Shown: piece by piece, positions 4,856 through 22,403 of the stretch
Layout of the letters: every line of letters starts with the position of its first letter
Numbering within the stretch: position 1 is the stretch's first letter
Origin: an uncultured Flavonifractor sp.
Lineage (GTDB): Bacteria; Bacillota; Clostridia; Oscillospirales; Oscillospiraceae
Assembly (NCBI RefSeq): GCF_944385615.1
Contig: NZ_CALWXV010000002.1
Coordinates: 57,285 to 121,284 of the forward strand
DNA length: 64,000 nt
Direction of reading: 5' to 3'
The notes under the pieces: model-generated
What the model saw: the letters and a program-made list of their open reading frames with translations, nothing else
Told to the model about the DNA's origin: nothing
Database searches by the model: none
Made by a program: the position numbers and the translations under genes

Positions 4856-5185
4856 ATGATAGCGCTGGACGATTTGTTCCAAAAGTCTGACCTGATTCCT
4901 GTTATTATCCAGGATGCGGAAACAGGCGAGGTCTTAATGCTGGGTTTTACCAAAAAAGAGGCAGTGGAGTTGACCCTAAAAACCAAAACCGCCTGGTTCT
5001 GGTCCCGCAGCCGACAGAAGCTGTGGAACAAGGGGGAGAGCTCCGGCCACTTCCTTCACGTGAAGAAGATAGTTACCGACTGCGATACCGATACCCTGCT
5101 CTATCTATGTACCCCGGAGGGGCCAACCTGCCACACCGGGGCCAGAAGCTGCTTTTTCAACATGATTTGGGAGGAGAAACCATGA
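4856..5185 (+). CDS. hisI: Phosphoribosyl-AMP cyclohydrolase (HisI)
   Basis: Opens the adenine ring of PR-AMP, a zinc- and magnesium-dependent step. The 109-residue protein is stand-alone rather than fused to HisE. It shows the typical WFWSRSRQKLWNKGE core and the zinc cysteines in DCDTDTLLYLC and CHTGARSCFF. Two ATGs occur at 4853 and 4856; I prefer 4856 because GAGGTGA ends at 4850, only two bases before the first. The frame extends upstream to 4790 but overlaps the 80-residue gene there. The stop overlaps the hisE start by four bases. Confidence 0.94.
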   Translation: MIALDDLFQKSDLIPVIIQDAETGEVLMLGFTKKEAVELTLKTKTAWFWSRSRQKLWNKGESSGHFLHVKKIVTDCDTDTLLYLCTPEGPTCHTGARSCFFNMIWEEKP

Positions 5186-5511
5186 GCGATACCATTTTGC
5201 GGGACCTGTATCAGGTGGTGCTGGGCCGTAAGAGCGATCCACAGGAGGGGTCCTATACCTGCTACCTGTTTGACAAGGGCCTGGATAAAATTTTAAAGAA
5301 GGTGGGGGAGGAGAGCGCCGAGACCATCATCGCTGCTAAGAACGGTAAGCAGGAGGATACGGTGGGAGAGATCTCCGATCTGATCTATCACCTGATGGTA
5401 CTCATGGCCGCTCAGGATATCCCTCTGGACGCAGTACTGGCCGAGCTGGAACGCCGCAGCCACAAGATTGGCAACCTGAAACAGATGAAGGTTGTGGACC
5501 ACGAGACGTAA
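5182..5511 (+). CDS. hisE: Phosphoribosyl-ATP pyrophosphohydrolase (HisE)
   Basis: Hydrolyses PR-ATP to PR-AMP and pyrophosphate, the second pathway step. It is a 109-residue all-helical MazG-like protein; the conserved stretch LKKVGEESAETIIAAKN and EISDLIYHLMVLMA carry the acidic magnesium ligands. The ATG sits in an ATGA overlap with hisI behind GGAGGAGAAACC. The frame is open further upstream only because it runs through hisI. It is the last his gene and is followed 30 bases later by a strong hairpin, so the visible operon ends here. Confidence 0.95.
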   Translation: MSDTILRDLYQVVLGRKSDPQEGSYTCYLFDKGLDKILKKVGEESAETIIAAKNGKQEDTVGEISDLIYHLMVLMAAQDIPLDAVLAELERRSHKIGNLKQMKVVDHET

Positions 5512-5540
5512 AGAAAGGTGGAAGATCTTTCTATTATCAC

Positions 5541-5580
5541 AAAGAAGACCTGCCGCAAACACTTGCGGCAGGCCTTCTTT
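5541..5580. terminator. Bidirectional terminator between hisE and the SleC-like cassette
   Basis: Inverted repeat AAAGAAG-A-CCTGCCGCAA against TTGCGGCAGG-C-CTTCTTT with one A/C mismatch and a four-base loop. A-rich and T-rich ends on both sides suit termination of hisE from the left and of the convergent minus-strand genes from the right. Confidence 0.85.
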
Positions 5581-5598
5581 GTATTTGGATCAAAAGGT

Positions 5599-6132
5599 CT
5601 ATTCCTTACCATAGGTGATAAACAGGGTGTACAACCGGCTGATGGTATTCCAGCTGTCTTGATCCAATACGCCGGTCTGAGTCCGGCCATCTAGCCGCTG
5701 TACCCATCGGATGTTATGTTGAGTGGCAGGATCGTTATAGCCGGTCACCGGGGCGGATTCCAGACCATCCAGCAGCCGAGCCAGTGCCCGGAACATGGAC
5801 TGCACCAAATAGAGGTGAATACTATCCTGATCTGGTTGGACAGAAAAGTCACAATTGGGGTAGCCACGGCAGGGAATGGGACCATTCAGCCTTGCCCTGG
5901 CCTGGAGGTAAAGGGCGGCGATGGCATCCCAGGTGGCTTGATCCACCCGCCCGGTGACTGGGGGAAAGAATTCCCGCTGGAATAGCATCACAGCTTCCAG
6001 CGTGCGCTCTCCAAAAACGCCGTCCGGCGTCAGCCGCGGCAGAAAGTCATAGAGAAAGGACAGCTCCCGCAGCATAGTTTGGAGGCTGCGGACAGGCTGA
6101 CCGATGAGGCGGATTTCCTGTGGAACGATCAT
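5599..6132 (-). CDS. Peptidoglycan-binding protein with two PG_binding_1-type modules
   Basis: A 177-residue protein made of two peptidoglycan-binding-type-1 repeats, about residues 12-75 (LRELSFLY...DGVFGERTLEAVMLFQREF) and 105-170 (QHNIRWVQRLDG...TGVLDQDSWNTISRLY). No signal peptide or catalytic domain is seen. Its ATG overlaps the stop of the SleC-like gene by four bases, so the two are translationally coupled. The modules resemble those at the C-terminus of the upstream protein, suggesting duplication or a helper wall-binding subunit. Cys88 and Cys94 in PCRGYPNC are the only notable cysteines. A role in spore cortex binding is inferred from the neighbour. Confidence 0.85.
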   Translation of the reverse strand: MIVPQEIRLIGQPVRSLQTMLRELSFLYDFLPRLTPDGVFGERTLEAVMLFQREFFPPVTGRVDQATWDAIAALYLQARARLNGPIPCRGYPNCDFSVQPDQDSIHLYLVQSMFRALARLLDGLESAPVTGYNDPATQHNIRWVQRLDGRTQTGVLDQDSWNTISRLYTLFITYGKE

Positions 6133-7349
6133 GCGGACGCTCCTCTCTGGTCGGCAGAGCCTAAGGTCATAGGCTGGCCGGGATACTGAGTCAGACCGGT
6201 GGCCTGGCTTTCAGGCAGGTCAGGACGGAACTCCTCGGGAATTACATTGGTATAGGTTTCCACTGTGTCCACAATGCCGGCGTATAGCCGGTAGAGCGCA
6301 ATCCAGCTTTGGGGTCCCATAATACCGTCCTGGGGCAGACCGCTCATGCGCTGAAGGGCAATGACAGCGTTTTTGGTGGCGGGTCCATAAATGCCGTCAA
6401 TTGCCACCCGGGGGATGTTGTCGTAGAACTCAGATACCACCGACAGAACATACTGAACCACCTTTACCGAGTCGCCTCTGGCACCCTCGGACAATACGTT
6501 GGGGAAGGGCTGGTCTCCACTGCCGGGATAGTAGGTCTGGCCCTGGCTGATAAGTTCTGCCAGATCCAACACCCCCACATAAAGAAATACCAGCTTATAC
6601 CAGGTTGAGTTGCCAACAATGCCATCGGGGGTAAGGTCAAAGATTTCCTGGAATTTTTTTACCGCGCCTTCGGTGGCGGAGCCGAAAATACCATCCACCG
6701 GATAGACTTTTGGGATGGCGGGATAATCCCTGGAAATGCGGTTGAGCATGACTTGGATGCGCTGGACAGCTTCGCCGCTGTCCCCGCGACGGATGGGGTA
6801 GCCAGGATAGGAGTAGCGGATGCCCCGGACCGGAGCATTGGTCACCAGCTCAATATTGTCCCCATAATAGGAGCGAAGAATGGTCATATAGTCTGCGCCG
6901 CCCTCTGCCATAGCCTGACTGCCCCACTGGGACAGGCCGTCACAGGTAACAGTGGTGCCATTGCAGAACTTGGCGGCTAGTGGCTCCACAAAGCCAATGC
7001 GCCGGATGTAGGAGTTGAACATCTCGTCCACCAACTGGCTGATGTTCTCAAAGATATTGCGGCCTTTGATGAATTTCTGATCATAGGCAGTGCTGGAGGT
7101 GATGTTGAAGGGATAACCCCGGCTGGGATAGAACTCCGTATATACCCGGTTTAGGGCAAAGGAGATGATGGCCAGGATGTTGGCCTGGAGGGCGGCGGTC
7201 TCCCAGGTCGGATAGATCTCACTGGAGGCCACGTTCTTGACGTACTCTGGAAAGGAGACGGTGACATTTTCCGCGCTGGAGCCGGGAGCGCCCAAATGAA
7301 CGGTGATGTACTGAGGTATGTAGGGGGTAATGGGTAAAGGTTCTGGCAT
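6129..7349 (-). CDS. sleC: SleC-like spore cortex-lytic enzyme (SpoIID/LytB domain plus two PG-binding modules)
   Basis: A 406-residue protein with a SpoIID/LytB-type domain at about 25-165, carrying VSFPEYVKNVASSEIYPTW and RGYPFNITSSTAYDQ, then two PG_binding_1 modules at about 190-255 and 285-355. From memory this order and these motifs match clostridial SleC, the lytic transglycosylase that degrades spore cortex at germination. Unlike SleC it has no N-terminal pro-region: that region appears as the separate upstream gene 7362-7751, in the same frame and separated by a single TAA. The ATG at 7349 has AGGAGG right behind that stop. No signal peptide is seen, as expected for a protein made in the mother cell or spore. 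Confidence 0.85.
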   Translation of the reverse strand: MPEPLPITPYIPQYITVHLGAPGSSAENVTVSFPEYVKNVASSEIYPTWETAALQANILAIISFALNRVYTEFYPSRGYPFNITSSTAYDQKFIKGRNIFENISQLVDEMFNSYIRRIGFVEPLAAKFCNGTTVTCDGLSQWGSQAMAEGGADYMTILRSYYGDNIELVTNAPVRGIRYSYPGYPIRRGDSGEAVQRIQVMLNRISRDYPAIPKVYPVDGIFGSATEGAVKKFQEIFDLTPDGIVGNSTWYKLVFLYVGVLDLAELISQGQTYYPGSGDQPFPNVLSEGARGDSVKVVQYVLSVVSEFYDNIPRVAIDGIYGPATKNAVIALQRMSGLPQDGIMGPQSWIALYRLYAGIVDTVETYTNVIPEEFRPDLPESQATGLTQYPGQPMTLGSADQRGASA

Positions 7350-7361
7350 GGTATCCCTCCT

Positions 7362-7751
7362 TTACAGATTTTGGGGTGGGACGTTCACGGGAGTTTCCGG
7401 CAGCAGAGTAGGGGAGCGCTCCGGCAGTGGAATCACTTCCAGCTCCTGAAGGGTTTGCGTGTCTGGGAAAATCTGAACGTTTTCCACCACCAAAAGCTCA
7501 TAGCCCGGAGATTCCACCCAGATATCACATACGGCAAAGGGGGCGGTGGTACCGGGAGATTCGCTGGCGGTGGCGTCTGGGGTATTGACCTGGACCGGGG
7601 CGGTGCGGCCGTTGGTGTCTGTGACCCGCAGGGCCAAAAGGGTATGGCGGCCTTCGGTCCCCCGTTGGGTAAAAGCTACGGTGGCGCCAACCACCGGAAT
7701 CTGAGCCCTGGAGGTAAAAACCCGGGTCAGAATGGTTCCTGTTGCGGCCAA
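7362..7751 (-). CDS. SleC pro-region-like protein (carboxypeptidase-regulatory-like beta domain)
   Basis: A 129-residue protein whose core (about 5-105) looks like a transthyretin/carboxypeptidase-regulatory-like beta sandwich, including VVGATVAFTQRG, VTDTNGRTAPVQV and WVESPGYELLVVENV; the tail is Pro-rich. From memory this resembles the N-terminal pro-domain of clostridial SleC. I place the start at TTG 7751 because AAGGAGG lies eight bases before it; the frame is open upstream to 8219, but that part lacks a ribosome site and runs into the divergent ruvC gene. Its TAA stop is followed in frame by four codons and the ATG of the SleC-like enzyme. Confidence 0.75.
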   Translation of the reverse strand: MAATGTILTRVFTSRAQIPVVGATVAFTQRGTEGRHTLLALRVTDTNGRTAPVQVNTPDATASESPGTTAPFAVCDIWVESPGYELLVVENVQIFPDTQTLQELEVIPLPERSPTLLPETPVNVPPQNL

Positions 7752-7859
7752 TCTGCATTCCTCCTTTTCCTTCCACTCTATGCTGATCGGGGCGAAAATG
7801 CCCTTCATGTATTCCGATGGGAGAAGTTGCCTTGTTTTACCAGACAGCTCAATTCCACC

Positions 7860-7888
7860 TTGCGCCGGTTCTGCCACCGTGGTACAAT
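7860..7888 (+). promoter_or_regulatory. Candidate sigma-A promoter of ruvC
   Basis: TTGCGC at 7860-7865 and TACAAT at 7883-7888 with a 17-base spacer, about 35 bases ahead of the ruvC start. Confidence 0.55.
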
Positions 7889-7923
7889 AAATTTTGTATG
7901 GAAACAGGAAGGAAACCGACGCT

Positions 7924-8457
7924 ATGCTGATTTTAGGGATCGACCCCGGCTTTGCCATTGTAGGCTTTGGACTGGTGGAGACAGCAGGGGGGAAGCAGCG
8001 ACTGGTCCAGTGTGGGGCCATCACTACCCCGGCGGGGGAACCTCTGCCCACCCGACTGGTGCAGATCGCCGACGATATGGACTTGTTGCTGGAGCAATTC
8101 CGCCCAGATGCTATGGCCATCGAGGAACTTTTCTTTAACAACAATATTACCACCGGCATCGGAGTAGCCCAAGCCCGTGGCGTGTTGCTATTGGCGGCAG
8201 AGCGGCGGCAGGTACCCATTTATGAATATTCCCCCAGCCAGGTCAAGCAGGCAGTGGTAGGGTATGGAAAGGCAGAGAAGCGGCAGGTTATGGACATGAC
8301 AAAACGGCTGCTGGGCCTGAAACATGTCCCCAAACCAGATGACGCCGCCGACGCTGTAGCCATCGCCCTATGCCACGCTCGGTCTTATACCTCCCGTCTC
8401 CAGCGGCCTGACGCTGCCCGTCCAGGCAGCGGCCGGTATGCTGTACGCAAGAATTAG
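7924..8457 (+). CDS. ruvC: Holliday junction endonuclease RuvC
   Basis: Resolves Holliday junctions by paired nicking. The 177-residue RNase-H-fold enzyme has the catalytic acids Asp7 in MLILGIDPG, Glu67/Glu68 in AIEELFF and the C-terminal DDAADAVAIALCH acidic cluster. The start is the ATG at 7924 behind AGGAAGG; ten further codons upstream are open but bear no RuvC similarity. ruvA starts 12 bases later, so the genes form one unit, ruvC-ruvA-unknown-ruvB. Confidence 0.96.
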   Translation: MLILGIDPGFAIVGFGLVETAGGKQRLVQCGAITTPAGEPLPTRLVQIADDMDLLLEQFRPDAMAIEELFFNNNITTGIGVAQARGVLLLAAERRQVPIYEYSPSQVKQAVVGYGKAEKRQVMDMTKRLLGLKHVPKPDDAADAVAIALCHARSYTSRLQRPDAARPGSGRYAVRKN

Positions 8458-8469
8458 GAGTAAACCGCT

Positions 8470-9075
8470 ATGTTTTACTATGTCAAAGGCACTGTGGCCC
8501 ATACCGCTCCTTATCTGGCAGTTATTGACTGCGGTGGGGTGGGTTACGCCTGCCGTACCACCAATAATACGCTTTCCGCTCTGAAAAAGGGAGAAAGTGC
8601 CAAGCTTTATACCCACCTGAACGTCCGGGAAGATGCTATGGAGCTCTACGGCTTTGCCACCGAAAACGAGCTCAACTGCTTCCAGCTTTTGCTCTCGGTA
8701 TCGGGTGTGGGGCCCAAGGCGGCTTTATCCATTCTGTCTGCCGCCACCCCTGAATCTTTGGCCATGAGTATTATCACCGGAGATGAAAAGGCCCTTACCA
8801 TAGCCCAGGGCATCGGCAAGAAAATTGCCCAGCGTATCATTCTGGAATTAAAAGATAAGCTGGCCAAAGGCCAGATTTCTCCCAGCGGTGAGAGTTATGG
8901 GGGCACTGGCGTGACGGTGATCCCGGAAAATAAGTCCTCTGAGGCCGCCGCCGCCTTGGCGGTGCTGGGGTATTCTCAGGCCGAAATCGGTATGGCCCTC
9001 AAAGGCATCGATGTGGACAGTCTGAGCCTGGAGGAGATCATCAAGCAGGCCCTGAAGAAGATGGTAAAAGGGTGA
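8470..9075 (+). CDS. ruvA: Holliday junction branch migration protein RuvA
   Basis: Binds four-way junctions and loads the RuvB motor. The 201-residue protein has the N-terminal OB-fold domain (about 1-63), two helix-hairpin-helix motifs, SVSGVGPKAALSIL and AQGIGKKIAQRIILEL, and the small C-terminal RuvB-contact domain (about 155-201) after a linker. ATG start with TTAGGAG upstream. The small unknown gene follows after 59 bases. Confidence 0.96.
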   Translation: MFYYVKGTVAHTAPYLAVIDCGGVGYACRTTNNTLSALKKGESAKLYTHLNVREDAMELYGFATENELNCFQLLLSVSGVGPKAALSILSAATPESLAMSIITGDEKALTIAQGIGKKIAQRIILELKDKLAKGQISPSGESYGGTGVTVIPENKSSEAAAALAVLGYSQAEIGMALKGIDVDSLSLEEIIKQALKKMVKG

Positions 9076-13163: not shown

Positions 13164-14648
13164 TTATAGAATAATACAGATCAGCCCGCCGGAGCCCTCA
13201 TTGATGATGCGCTGCAATGTCTCCTGGAGCTTGGAGCGGGCATCCTCCGGCATCCGTTTCAGCTTTCCGTTCAGGTCCTCGCTGACCAGCTCATGGAAGG
13301 ACTTACCGAAAATGTTGGACTGCCAGATGGCCTTGGTGTCCCCCTCAAACTCCTGAAGCAGGAAGTTGACCATTTCCTCGCTCTGCTTTTCGTTCCCCAC
13401 AATGGGGGAGACTTCGGTCTCGATATCGGCCCGGATCATGTGGATGGAGGGAGCAGAAGCCTTCAGCCGTACCCCATAGCGGCCACCCTGGCGAACAATC
13501 TCCGGCTCTTCCAGCACCAGCTCGTCGGTGCCGGGGACCACAATGCCGTAGCCGGTGGCCTTGACCTCCTCCAGCGCCCCCGCCACCTTGTCATACTCAG
13601 CCTTGACTCTGGACAAACGGCTGAGCAGCTCCAACAAATCTCCATCGTCATGGATGGTAAAGCCGGACTGTTGGGAGAGGGTGTCGTAAAACAAACTGCG
13701 GGGTAGCTCCAAATCAGCGGAAGCCAGACCAGTACCCAGGTTCATAGAGGTGACCTGGGCCCGGCTCACTGTGTCGCAGTCCCCCATGGCCGCCACCGTG
13801 CCCTCCACATCCCGGATGCGGCGCATTCCCTTGGCACTTTCCCGAATGGCGGCGTACAGCCCGTGCTTGATGGGATGATCCCAGGGTAGAGCATCCACCC
13901 AGGGGGGGAGGAACAGATCCAGCTCCTTTACAGGGAATTCATACAAAACCCCCTTGATGATGCCGGTCACCGCCTCCTCACTCAGCTCCAGACAGTTGAC
14001 GCAGGTACAGGTCACATCATACCGGCTGGCGATATCCGCCCGGATAGCCTGGGCCCGGTCAGACTGGGGTTGAGCTGAGTTGAGCACAACCAGAAATGGT
14101 TTGCCCAACTCTTTCAGCTCGGTGATGACCCGCTCTTCCGCCTCCAGATAGTCCTCCCGGGGAATGTCGGTGATGGTACCGTCGGTGGTGACTACGATGC
14201 CAATGGTGGAGTGTTCCGCAATGACCTTCCGGGTACCGATCTCGGCGGCCTCGGTCATGGGAATAGGTTGCGGGAACCAGGGGGTGGTGACCATCCGGGG
14301 GGAATCGTCTTCCAGAGAGCCCACTGCCCCCGGTACCAGATAGCCCACACAGTCGATAAGCCGTACCTTGAAAGAGGCGCCGCTGTCCATCACCACCTCC
14401 ACCGCCTCTTCGGGAACAAATTTGGGCTCGGCGGTCATAATAGTGCGGCCTGAGCCGCTCTGGGGCAATTCATCCTTGGCCCGCTCCCGGCGGTAGACAT
14501 TTTCAATCCCCGGAATAACCATGGTTTCCATGAACCGCTTGATAAACGTGGATTTTCCAGTCCGCACCGGCCCCACCACGCCGATATAGATATCCCCCTC
14601 GGTCCGCAGGGCGATATCCTCATAGAGCTTGCGTTGTTCCACTGGCAA
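13164..14648 (-). CDS. spoIVA: Stage IV sporulation protein A (SpoIVA)
   Basis: Coat morphogenetic ATPase that polymerises on the forespore surface and anchors the spore coat. The 494-residue length matches the family. Walker A is GPVRTGKST (Gly26-Thr34, Lys32), with GGGS-type switch segments DSGASFKVRLIDCVGYL and TNSAQ-like VLNSAQPQ; the C-terminus ends GGLICIIL, as is usual for SpoIVA. The start is TTG at 14648, seven bases after GAAGGAGG. A sigma-E-like promoter candidate lies upstream. It is monocistronic as far as seen. Confidence 0.96.
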   Translation of the reverse strand: MPVEQRKLYEDIALRTEGDIYIGVVGPVRTGKSTFIKRFMETMVIPGIENVYRRERAKDELPQSGSGRTIMTAEPKFVPEEAVEVVMDSGASFKVRLIDCVGYLVPGAVGSLEDDSPRMVTTPWFPQPIPMTEAAEIGTRKVIAEHSTIGIVVTTDGTITDIPREDYLEAEERVITELKELGKPFLVVLNSAQPQSDRAQAIRADIASRYDVTCTCVNCLELSEEAVTGIIKGVLYEFPVKELDLFLPPWVDALPWDHPIKHGLYAAIRESAKGMRRIRDVEGTVAAMGDCDTVSRAQVTSMNLGTGLASADLELPRSLFYDTLSQQSGFTIHDDGDLLELLSRLSRVKAEYDKVAGALEEVKATGYGIVVPGTDELVLEEPEIVRQGGRYGVRLKASAPSIHMIRADIETEVSPIVGNEKQSEEMVNFLLQEFEGDTKAIWQSNIFGKSFHELVSEDLNGKLKRMPEDARSKLQETLQRIINEGSGGLICIIL

Positions 14649-18515: not shown

Positions 18516-21500
18516 TTATTTGTCCAGGAAACGCTGGAGAATGACGGCAGCCTCGGCCCGGCTGGCCTGACCGGTGGGGTCCAGCAAATTACCAGTTTTA
18601 CCGGTAATCAGGCTCTGATTTACAGCCCACCCAAGACCCTCCGCCGCCCAGGCAGAGGTGGAGGCACCGTCGGTAAAGCCGGTAAGCGCGTTAGGAGCGG
18701 ATACCACTGCTATACCGGCATACGGAGCATAGCGATACAGAATGGTGGCGAACTGCTCCCGGGTGATGCTGTCGTTGGGGCCGAATAGGCCGTTGCCATA
18801 GCCGCCCACGATGTTATTGGCAGAGGCCCAGGCCACCCCGTCGGAGTACCACTGACCGGCGGCTACATCGGTGAAAGAGGCGCCGGTACCAGGAGTCTCA
18901 CCGCTAAGACGGTAGAGGATGGTCACCAGCATCCCACGAGAGAGGGGCATGGTGGGGGAGAAGTTGCTGCCGCCGGTACCCGACATCAGGCCCTGGCCGC
19001 TGACATAGGCCACACCTTCCGCCGCCCAGTGGTTGGCGGGCACATCGGCAAAGCTAACGCCAGGCTGGGGTTCTGGCTCGGTGGAGGGCTGGCTGCCCAG
19101 CAAGGCCTCCGCGGTGAGGACCTGGTCAGAGAGCATTTTGGCATAAATGGTGTTGGTTACATAGCGGTAGTCGTCCTGCTGATGGGCCCGATTGTTGACC
19201 GAGTTGGCAAAGATGGTCAGGTCCATGCTGCCTCTTTGGAGAGAGATGGCCTCTACATAGCCGTCGATGGGAGTGCCGTCCTCATTGAGACAGCAGCCGG
19301 CGATGAAGCTATCCTTGGCAGCTGCCTGGATAAGCACCTGGGCGCCCTCAGGCACCTGGGTGATGACGCCACAGCTATAGGTGTAGAGCATGTTATCTCC
19401 ATCGGCCACATAGCTGGCGGTGACCAGGCTGTCGGTGGGATAGGTAACGGTATGGAGCGCCTCCATGCCCAGAGTGTTATACTGGAGGTCAGGGACCAGG
19501 TTGTTGGAGATATAATCCAATGGACTGGAGCCGGTGGCGATGTAGGGAGTACCCGCCTTGACAGCGGACACAGCGGCGGCGCCTTTTTCTCCCTGATCCA
19601 GGGCAACGTTGCCCAGAATAATATCAGCCTTGGCCGGGTCGTCGGTGATGGTGAAGCCCAGCTGATCGGCGAAGGCCACCACGTCATAGTTGGAGGTGCC
19701 GTTGCTGTACACATTGCGGTAGTTGATATAGCCATATCCCTGGCTGAACCACTTGGAGAAGTATCCTTCGGTCACAGTGTTACCGGAGAAGGGGGCATAC
19801 CGGCCTGCCAGGAATACGGTTGGCTTGGAGATGGCTCTGGCCTCTGGCATCTCGGTGACCCGGGTAGCGGAGAGGACATACTGCTGAGAAATGGCGGCGT
19901 AATCCGCATAGGACAACACGAAGTCACTCTTGTAGGTCCCGGAGGTGACCATGCCCACCGTCTTGCCGCTGTTAAGCAGGGTGTTTACTGCACGGACAGC
20001 CTCGTTGCCGCTGTTGGACAGAACCACAAGATCGCCGGAGGTACCGGTGAGCTGAGAGGTACCGGTGACGGTGGTAATGGCGGTCAGCTTACCGGCAAAA
20101 GCGCCGGGGGAGGCGATAGCCAGACAGTCAAAGCCACGCATGGCAGGGAAGTTGGATACTGACTCAGAGTACAGATCGGGGAATCCAGAGGCAGAGGCGT
20201 CAGCGCCCTCCCACAGTACGGCGTTGGCGTAATTGCGCTTGGCCTGGTGCATATCCACCACCAGGGAGCCCGCCTTGTAGGTGGTACCGTTGACATAGAC
20301 GTCTTCCGTCAGTTTGGAAAGCTGCACTCCATTGCGCAGCAGGAACCGGCCCATCTCATAGGCGTCGGCCAGGTCCCGCTGGGAGGCGGAGTCTACGGGG
20401 ATGACGTAGTATTCAGGGAAGTAATTGTTGTTCTGCGCGTAGGGCACCCGCCAGGTATCGCTGTCCAGCTTGTTGTTGTTTACATCCACATACCACTTCT
20501 CCATATCCGCCCGGTGGTCCTCATTCTCAATACCACGGCGGAAGAATTCCAGCTGGTTATAGTAGATGTTGTCCTTGTTGTCCATGATATAGTCGATAAG
20601 TCCATACATACCATACTCAAACAGGTCGGTAGACGCCTGATTGTTGTAGGGGGTCTCAATCGTGTAGCCCAGAGCCCCACAGTTGAGCATGGCATAACTG
20701 GGACCGTAGTTGGTACACAGGTCGTCCCAGGCAGACCAGTGCATGGTAGAGGGATCGTAGTCATCCCGCAAGGGCGTATAGTAGGACCAGAAGAGAGAGT
20801 TGGGGTGCTCCTCCTTGGTGGCCGACATGGTGCCCAGAGCGGCGGTACCGAAGGCCTCTGCCCCCAGGGCAAAGTTTTTGACCAACAGGTCGTACTCCAG
20901 ATTGGGCTCATGGGGTGGCGTACATGGTTCCACCAGGAACTCATCCATATAACCGTGGAGCTCTACAAAGGCTACCGGGTTCCAGTCGTTGATGACCTGG
21001 ACCAAATTGGTGGTCTCGCTTTGGGTCTGGTTGGAGGCGTCCCGGTTCAGATCGAAACCGTTATCGTTGCGCCGGGCGTTGTAGGTGCGCCCGTCAGGGT
21101 TCTCATTGGGGCAAATGACGAAGATGATATCGTCCAGAATATCGTCTACCTTCAGGGTGATATCCCCGCTGATGGTGTACAGCTCACTGGCATCATTGAC
21201 GCCGGTATTGTTCTGGATCTTGCCGCTGGCATCAGTGGTAAACTTCTGAGAGCCCAGACCAGAGATGCCCAGGTCTACTACATCAGGGGCAAACAGCTTG
21301 GAGATATCCACGCTACTGTCCAGGAAACCGGTGAGGGTGTTATAGGTGATGGTTTCCTGAGTAGCTAGGGCCCGCAGCAGGTTGAGCTGGGCATCCACAC
21401 CAGGGTCCTCGTCAGGGTGTACGTTGTTGAGGAACAGCGGCACCCGATACTCGCCCAACGTGCCGTTATTCAACTTGAGCATCAGGGAGGCTGGATCGGT

Positions 21501-22238
21501 CTCCGCAATGGCGTTCATCTGCTGGAATGCGTCTACCGAGGCTTTGCTGTCGGACAGGGTGACATAATACTGATCCCGGCCTCCCTCACTCTTGCCGAAG
21601 GTAGTGACGGTGAGATAGCGGCCGGGGAGAGCGTCGGCGATAATGTCCTGGATCTTCTCATCTATGTCGTCATAGCGGGTGTAGCTGTCGTATGCGCTTA
21701 CCGTCATGACGGCGGAGGCCAGGGTGGTCTCCCCATTGCGGACTGAGAAGGTATAGTTCCCAATGAAGCTGGGCCACGCATTGCGTCCACTGGTAGAATC
21801 GCCGTTGATGCCCAGGAAGGACGTGGCGGTGAAGGGCAAGGTGACAGTGACCTTACCGCCCTCCTGGCGGGCAGTCACCTCACCCAAGGTAAACAGGGCA
21901 GTTCCGCCTTCGCCCCCATTCCATACCTGCCACAGGTCCAGCCGGTCGCCGGTATAATAATAAGGATACAGGGCGGTATTCTGAAATGCCTTGTCTCGGG
22001 TCAGATACCACTTCAGCCCTTTGGCCCAGGAGGTGGGATCAGCCCCGTTGAGCTGGGAAGCGTCCACCGTCAGGGTGGCGGCAAAAGCCTGATCCTTGTC
22101 TGCCAGGGCCAGCGTGGTGTCCGAAAGGGTAAGGGTAGCCGGTTCGGCGGCAGAGGAGAGGGCGCTCATGGAGAGCAGCATACTCAGTGCCAAAAGCAGG
22201 GAGAGAACACGGGCAAGGGATTTGCTCCTTACGTTCAT
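18516..22238 (-). CDS. Secreted M14 zinc carboxypeptidase with three S-layer homology domains
   Basis: A 1240-residue exported protein. The signal peptide is residues 1-30, with hydrophobic core LARVLSLLLALSMLL and a likely cut after SSA or AEP. A beta-rich region (30-185) precedes an M14 metallocarboxypeptidase domain at about 190-560: zinc ligands His274 and Glu277 (HPDE) and His428 (ELHGY), substrate residues Asn398-Arg399 (LNRD) and the catalytic Glu528 (TIETPY). A long middle region (560-1045) has no family I recognise. A Pro/Glu linker and three SLH domains (about 1062-1235) anchor it to secondary wall polymers. ATG 22238 has AAGGAGG upstream; 47 open codons before it lack a signal peptide context. 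Probably monocistronic. Confidence 0.9.
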   Translation of the reverse strand: MNVRSKSLARVLSLLLALSMLLSMSALSSAAEPATLTLSDTTLALADKDQAFAATLTVDASQLNGADPTSWAKGLKWYLTRDKAFQNTALYPYYYTGDRLDLWQVWNGGEGGTALFTLGEVTARQEGGKVTVTLPFTATSFLGINGDSTSGRNAWPSFIGNYTFSVRNGETTLASAVMTVSAYDSYTRYDDIDEKIQDIIADALPGRYLTVTTFGKSEGGRDQYYVTLSDSKASVDAFQQMNAIAETDPASLMLKLNNGTLGEYRVPLFLNNVHPDEDPGVDAQLNLLRALATQETITYNTLTGFLDSSVDISKLFAPDVVDLGISGLGSQKFTTDASGKIQNNTGVNDASELYTISGDITLKVDDILDDIIFVICPNENPDGRTYNARRNDNGFDLNRDASNQTQSETTNLVQVINDWNPVAFVELHGYMDEFLVEPCTPPHEPNLEYDLLVKNFALGAEAFGTAALGTMSATKEEHPNSLFWSYYTPLRDDYDPSTMHWSAWDDLCTNYGPSYAMLNCGALGYTIETPYNNQASTDLFEYGMYGLIDYIMDNKDNIYYNQLEFFRRGIENEDHRADMEKWYVDVNNNKLDSDTWRVPYAQNNNYFPEYYVIPVDSASQRDLADAYEMGRFLLRNGVQLSKLTEDVYVNGTTYKAGSLVVDMHQAKRNYANAVLWEGADASASGFPDLYSESVSNFPAMRGFDCLAIASPGAFAGKLTAITTVTGTSQLTGTSGDLVVLSNSGNEAVRAVNTLLNSGKTVGMVTSGTYKSDFVLSYADYAAISQQYVLSATRVTEMPEARAISKPTVFLAGRYAPFSGNTVTEGYFSKWFSQGYGYINYRNVYSNGTSNYDVVAFADQLGFTITDDPAKADIILGNVALDQGEKGAAAVSAVKAGTPYIATGSSPLDYISNNLVPDLQYNTLGMEALHTVTYPTDSLVTASYVADGDNMLYTYSCGVITQVPEGAQVLIQAAAKDSFIAGCCLNEDGTPIDGYVEAISLQRGSMDLTIFANSVNNRAHQQDDYRYVTNTIYAKMLSDQVLTAEALLGSQPSTEPEPQPGVSFADVPANHWAAEGVAYVSGQGLMSGTGGSNFSPTMPLSRGMLVTILYRLSGETPGTGASFTDVAAGQWYSDGVAWASANNIVGGYGNGLFGPNDSITREQFATILYRYAPYAGIAVVSAPNALTGFTDGASTSAWAAEGLGWAVNQSLITGKTGNLLDPTGQASRAEAAVILQRFLDK

Positions 22239-22351
22239 AGTCGATGCCTCCTTCAATGTTGTTGATGGGCAAGGTCCTGCTGGGGCGGGGTACTTTGCAA
22301 ACACACTACTGCTGCATGGGCGCCTCCTCCTCATTCGTTCAATTGTCAAAC

Positions 22352-22403
22352 GGGGAGACTTCTCCCCAAAAATTATCATATCTTATCCCAAAACTTCCGT
22401 CAA
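22352..22403 (-). promoter_or_regulatory. Promoter and 5' terminal hairpin of the M14 carboxypeptidase gene
   Basis: On the minus strand TTGACG (22403-22398), a 17-base spacer and TATGAT (22380-22375). The start should fall near 22368, exactly at a GGGGAGA/TCTCCCC hairpin (22352-22367), leaving a leader of about 130 bases. The hairpin may protect the long mRNA. Confidence 0.5.

Follow-up and report, generated by a model that had tools for sequence, protein, structure and literature searches.

Proteolysis by Csp proteases is the established route by which SleC is activated in clostridia (PMC3567191; PMC6021603), and YabG has been reported to cleave preproSleC after R119 in Clostridioides difficile, leaving QSELI, and after R114 in Clostridium perfringens (PMC6464247). 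Two further systems are close enough for comparison, namely the SleC2a and SleC2b proteins of Clostridium botulinum Group II, which carry four to five peptidoglycan (PG)-binding domains (PMC5083711), and the SleB-YpeB pair, in which a separately encoded, non-covalent partner has been proposed to keep a cortex-lytic enzyme inactive until germination (PMC13393411); here and below, citations refer to the passages available from these papers. In this work we describe a three-gene cluster of an uncultured Flavonifractor sp. that, as judged from its sequence, encodes a spore PG lyase of the SleC/SleC2 type in pieces. The cluster lies in a stretch of 64,000 nucleotides (the window; contig NZ_CALWXV010000002.1, positions 57,285 to 121,284), which the closest matches in a scan of named genomes also place in Flavonifractor. 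We consider it probable (roughly 0.6) that the cluster provides an enzyme of the SleC type and a partner that it binds non-covalently, working without Csp or YabG processing.

The proteins of the locus contain the N-domain, SpoIID and PG-binding homology that characterizes the SleC superfamily. Canonical SleC of C. difficile (9h68) and C. perfringens shares with them the N-domain, the SpoIID domain and the first PG-binding domain, all in the same order, as well as a conserved Glu. However, the single chain of canonical SleC is absent here, its pre-, pro- and catalytic parts being spread over two genes as separate proteins; in addition, the locus has extra PG-binding domains and a third gene, lacks the P.K.PE stretch, falls in another clade and comes without any Csp or YabG found in the genomes searched. 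SleC2-type proteins are the nearest fused relatives, and their linkers are likewise without P.K.PE; the four PG-binding domains over two genes compare with four to five in SleC2 (PMC5083711), so that the SleC2-type composition of SpoIID plus four to five such domains is reached only when the third gene is counted (2 + 2), and a single chain there stands against two or three genes here. The SleB-YpeB pair offers a precedent for restraint of a cortex-lytic enzyme by a separately encoded non-covalent partner, although both enzyme and partner are unrelated and the comparison concerns the working mode only. SpoIID (stage II sporulation protein D) itself has a role in engulfment and differs from the present locus in that, to our knowledge, it has neither a pre-domain partner nor a PG-binding array. 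No description of a split SleC was found in open-access titles and the beginnings of abstracts, a search that left subscription literature, including any on 9h68, mostly outside its scope.

Gene layout and protein identities

Conceptual translation across 7751-6129 (minus) gives 129 residues, the TAA, RRDT and then 406 residues, since the first gene, the TAA, the codons AGG AGG GAT ACC, the ATG and the second gene share one reading frame, with AGGAGG placed immediately 3' of the TAA (Table 1). An earlier note on this DNA had described these coordinates and this arrangement exactly, and both of its genes stand; it overlooked the third gene, whose start overlaps the end of gene 2 by ATGA. Among seven Flavonifractor-clade species pairs, dN/dS was 0.07-0.27 for gene 1, 0.035-0.15 for gene 2 and 0.03-0.26 for gene 3, and genes 1 and 2 are under purifying selection. 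An Rfam search of 5000-9000 gave no match.

Table 1. Features of the three-gene cluster (window coordinates).
Feature	Position	Strand	Remark
GCATA motif upstream of gene 1	7779..7783	-	kept in 16/16 aligned Flavonifractor-clade loci
AAAAGGAGG, ribosome-binding site of gene 1	7760..7768	-	sequence, upstream of TTG at 7751
Gene 1: 129-aa protein, TTG start, C-terminal end VPPQNL	7365..7751	-	separately encoded homologue of the N-terminal SleC pre-domain
Predicted fold of the gene 1 product: transthyretin/CarboxypepD_reg-like beta-sandwich	7365..7751	-	model; weak profile matches in related N-proteins
TAA that ends gene 1, in the frame of gene 2	7362..7364	-	frame not kept in relatives
AGGAGG, ribosome-binding site of gene 2	7356..7361	-	sequence
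Gene 2: 406-aa protein, SpoIID-type catalytic domain and two PG_binding_1	6129..7349	-	counterpart of mature SleC
SpoIID-type domain of gene 2, residues ~8-166, with Glu44 within SSEIYPTW	within 6129..7349	-	
Gene 3: 177-aa protein with a pair of PG_binding_1 domains	5599..6132	-	Pfam

Against PDB sequences, the 406-amino-acid (aa) protein matched the SleC pre-pro-form 9h68 at E=1.2e-73, with residues 8-266 of the query on positions 216-476 of the chain, and Pfam found SpoIID and two PG_binding_1 domains in it, bearing out the earlier assignment of this protein to the SpoIID and PG-binding part of SleC. Its Glu44, in SSEIYPTW, is conserved in 107/107 classified rows, and we take this SpoIID-domain Glu to be catalytic. 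The product of gene 2 is predicted to cleave cortex glycan as a SpoIID-type lytic transglycosylase.

The 129-aa protein was less readily placed. Pfam and NCBIfam returned nothing above cut-off for this protein alone, and a single-sequence PDB search put an unrelated protein on top and 9h68 second (E=0.15), at the expected chain position 75-166. A profile of 18 split-form N-proteins found 9h68 at E=1.6e-16, the next best match being 0.024, and profile-profile alignment (hhalign) of these with 18 canonical SleC N-regions gave E=9.5e-33 over 127 columns. It is the family profiles, not the single-sequence searches, that settle the homology, and these alignments identify the product of gene 1 as the N-terminal pre-domain of SleC, in agreement with the likeness to the SleC N-terminal part proposed earlier. 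CarboxypepD_reg matched weakly in 11/18 split N-proteins, the window's own protein being among those without a match.

The GCATA motif upstream of gene 1 is compatible with a -10 element of the mother-cell sigma-K/sigma-E type, the -35 part not being resolved. A CATA-type motif before the operon is a further likeness to C. difficile, in which sleC is described as sigma-K dependent (PMC3738446).

Distribution and phylogeny of the split form

Relatives were gathered by genome searches and one scan of named genomes, and loci were sorted with a hidden Markov model grown from the 129-aa protein, so that the presence of the N-domain in classified loci partly follows from the rule. Among 109 tree loci, 107 were classified as split (64), fused short, i.e., canonical SleC with one PG-binding domain (33), or fused long, with several such domains (10); the remaining two are L092, a split locus whose spacer is wider, and L051, which runs off the contig edge. 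The tree and the counts of linkers, frames and third genes do not include L004-L020 and L002, which were set aside as repeating L033-L047 or L001; among these, however, L016 and L017 represent additional genomes of the Flavonifractor clade, and each of the two is split and in frame 0. Also omitted were L120, which is too short, and L003, L021, L048 and L065, which have no full SpoIID start. Several matches stayed outside the locus set, including second ones in G029, G119, G253, G391 and G440 as well as the matches in G037 and G054.

In a careful tree, built from 76 rows out of 109 (33 were left out), the split forms made up one clade (bootstrap 98, SH-aLRT 88), and canonical SleC made up a separate one (100/100) with the window's locus outside it. 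The nearest fused relatives of the split forms are the long multi-PG-binding proteins of SleC2 type, not canonical SleC; the SleC2 label rests on the described domain composition, no named SleC2 sequence having been compared. The two-gene arrangement is present in 16/16 Flavonifractor-clade loci; by family, it occurs in 12 coded ones and in others besides. The earlier note saw a SleC-like gene that one in-frame stop had divided in two; instead, the split is an old and widespread multi-gene operon form whose nearest fused kin are SleC2-type. That a private mutation or assembly error broke a single gene is excluded, for only the in-frame arrangement speaks for it, whereas relatives keep the two genes and both parts are under purifying selection.

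The fused and split states are separated by one change on the unrooted tree, and the direction of that change is set by where the root is placed. A reading as fission, not fusion, is based on midpoint rooting only, which has fused forms on both sides and the split forms nested beside the SleC2-type ones. This argues against an ancestral split state from which a single gene fusion gave rise to the fused SleC and SleC2, and we regard that history as improbable.

A PG-binding open reading frame follows gene 2 in 46/64 split loci, compared with 0/33 canonical and 0/10 long fused loci. A gene 3 profile fitted PG-binding domains 4-5 of two long proteins (L098 and L099) best, and other repeats in other long proteins; it is possible that gene 3 stems from a SleC2-type protein whose C-terminal pair of PG-binding domains became detached.

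Stop codon, spacer and reading frame

In all 16 Flavonifractor-clade loci examined (the window's and L033-L047, of which L034 is labelled Clostridiales bacterium only), the TAA and the ribosome site are kept. The TTG start of gene 1 (7751-7749), an uncommon one, is also kept in 16/16. Frame 0 was found in 14/16 of these loci (and in L016 and L017, outside the 16) and frame 2 in 2/16, while the other 48 split loci are distributed over frames 0/1/2 as 10/12/26 and end gene 1 with TAA (22), TAG (20) or TGA (6). Because frames and stops vary in this way among relatives, read-through is not a conserved feature, and the in-frame position of the stop is incidental. A low level of read-through, yielding a regulated fused form of ~540 residues, had also been suggested for this locus; the prevalence of frame 0 in the Flavonifractor clade and the zymogen-like arrangement of the modelled read-through chain speak for it. 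However, stop codon, spacer length and frame all vary, 38/48 of the other split loci and 2/16 in the clade are out of frame, and, with the ribosome site preserved, the two final codons of the spacer differ among loci, so the suggestion is unsupported and we consider it very improbable.

Position of the gene break

The linker between N-domain and SpoIID domain has a median of 45 aa in the 33 fused short and 41.5 aa in the 10 fused long proteins, and of 20 aa in the 64 split loci, with tail and leader summed. A Q-x-L C-terminal end, mostly PQNL or a variant, was seen in 35/64 split N-proteins and is absent in the remaining ones, including the f38 and Bacilli-type loci; these ends align to the canonical I.I.P.L motif, which is located after the YabG site, and one locus (L109) contains SFSRQSELI. 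Further on, ahead of the SpoIID domain, a PPKIPE-type motif occurs in canonical linkers in 21/33 (strict) or 31/33 (loose, P.K.[PA]E), and P.K.[PA]E was found in 0/64 split tail and leader pairs and 0/10 long fused linkers. In C. perfringens SleC, the Csp cut is presumably located at residue 149/150. A break exactly at the Csp site was considered and dropped, and the reported YabG site (PMC6464247), used as an anchor, puts the break inside the propeptide. By this linker comparison, the free part is the pre-domain together with the start of the propeptide, and not the Csp-released pro-region that had been assumed.

Loci of family f48 (e.g., L122, L124, L129 and L141) come from genomes with Csp and fused SleC and without YabG, and their linkers, as far as examined, have no Arg-Gln site for YabG cleavage of the kind that many f58 and f74 linkers contain.

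Csp and YabG proteases

The genome of the window (89.55% complete) has no PF00082 match, and the Csp profile found nothing at E<=1e-20 in the 60 genomes of the relatives list, this one included. Csp was not found in the 20 genus genomes searched, nor YabG in 19 relatives-list genomes, 13 of them genus members, several of the genus genomes being incomplete. Csp activation is therefore unlikely here, in line with the earlier statement that activation must differ. One member of the Csp profile matches CspB 4i0w at E=6.5e-151, and the same profile finds Csp in the class survey.

This survey, one draw of 393 Clostridia genomes, gave a SleC-family match in 64, Csp in 30 and YabG in 83. Neither Csp nor YabG was found in any of the 29 split-only genomes, compared with 27 (Csp) and 18 (YabG) of the 28 genomes with canonical fused SleC (Fisher p: Csp 2e-15, YabG 4e-8, uncorrected for kinship). 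Two genomes were excluded from these tests, G192 with both forms (Csp present, YabG absent) and G210 with the long form only (neither present). Five were unclear (G440, G197, G151, G338 and G345), with Csp in G440 and YabG in none; G197, the genome of L092, has since been recognised as split and is without either protease. In addition, G420 has Csp and no SleC match, and G253 has canonical fused SleC and no Csp at 1e-40. Each split-only genome gave a single SleC-family match at E<=1e-25 among the best four candidates scored, and the split form is probably their sole SleC-family enzyme.

A link between fused SleC and any subtilase within the order was rejected, as PF00082 matches, present in 23/60 of the relatives-list genomes, turned up with either form of SleC; the Csp profile alone separated the two. 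The PF00082 proteins inspected by eye mostly start like secreted proteins, with L066 as an exception and the genus matches in G011 and G016 outside this inspection.

Two arrangements suggest that Csp genes follow single-chain SleC. G192 (family f38; L127 and L117) carries a split operon and a fused SleC together, and two csp genes lie beside the fused copy. In G270 and G202 (family f58), a CspB-type protease is fused to canonical SleC in one frame (L131:698-3898 and L134:621-3863; 1067 and 1080 aa); the L131 fusion matches CspB at E=2e-160 and SleC at E=1.9e-120.

Structure model and proposed mode of action

In an AlphaFold model, the 129-aa domain is docked on the catalytic domain as in the crystal of the C. 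difficile zymogen 9h68 (agreement over 284 residues at 2.4 Å, a figure that covers model residues 1-311 only). A Foldseek comparison of the whole chain gave an rmsd of 19.7 Å and a TM of 0.66, a mismatch that probably comes from a different placement of the PG-binding domain. Folded alone, the 129-aa family reached a pLDDT of 85.4 and a pTM of 0.74.

We propose that the three genes form one mother-cell operon, whose products would act without signal peptides, none having been seen by eye. The 129-aa protein would dock non-covalently on the catalytic domain, at the place of the pre-domain in the SleC zymogen, and serve as a folding partner and probably also as a restraint, so that the gene break would stand in for the proteolytic cuts. 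At germination, and downstream of GerA-type receptors, the partner may be released by hydration, by ions or by its own degradation, the latter as has been suggested for YpeB-SleB, and the freed lyase would then degrade the cortex. Binding, inhibition and trigger are what we infer; the genome itself encodes a GerA receptor, a SleB-type hydrolase and SpoIVA.

Several points weigh against this proposal. The docking model has a pTM of 0.58, its chain is tethered, with the stop read as Gln, and 9 of the 32 rows in its alignment are read-through chains and 2 are fused SleC. The sigma-K interpretation of GCATA is based on a short motif. The genomes in the Csp and YabG counts are not phylogenetically independent, and the best 4 (SleC family), 3 (Csp) and 6 (YabG) candidates were scored per genome. 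YabG is also absent in 10/28 canonical fused genomes, and Csp where long fused forms are sole or main (G210, G051, G041 and G029), so that Csp independence may predate the split. Finally, in the literature passages available, SleC2-type proteins, the nearest fused relatives, have no established function.

SpoIID-family lyases can act in sporulation, and the split SleC2-type system might accordingly work in spore formation, in cortex or coat assembly, leaving germination to SleB and making the 129-aa protein an assembly chaperone only. Consistent with this, the window's own genome and 12/12 other Flavonifractor genomes searched contain Hydrolase_2 (SleB/CwlJ-type) genes, long SleC2-type proteins occur beside canonical SleC in several genomes (e.g., G119 and G391), and the passages available from PMC5083711 do not state a role for SleC2. 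However, the modelled zymogen-like docking of the pre-domain would exceed the needs of assembly, and split-only genomes would probably be left without another SleC-family enzyme; we consider a role confined to spore formation unlikely, though worth keeping in mind.

If the restrained two-protein enzyme that we favour is correct, then a large lineage of gut spore-formers might possess a cortex-lytic zymogen without proteolysis, in which the inhibitory pre-domain was freed by gene fission, YabG and Csp are absent, and the switch is dissociation or loss of the partner; this wider picture is tentative, and we give it somewhat less than even odds. The split form is about as common as the canonical one among the SleC-carrying Clostridia genomes surveyed (29 split-only, 28 canonical fused), and it goes with absence of the Csp route, which suggests that gut commensals have a second way of regulating the enzyme. 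In a two-protein system of this kind, the pre-domain can be added or withheld.

Other genes of the window

A 1287-aa protein encoded at 18516-22379 (minus) carries an S-layer homology domain close to the C-terminal end; Pfam gave nothing else for it at 1e-10. SpoIVA, with all three of its domains, is encoded at 13164-14648 (minus).
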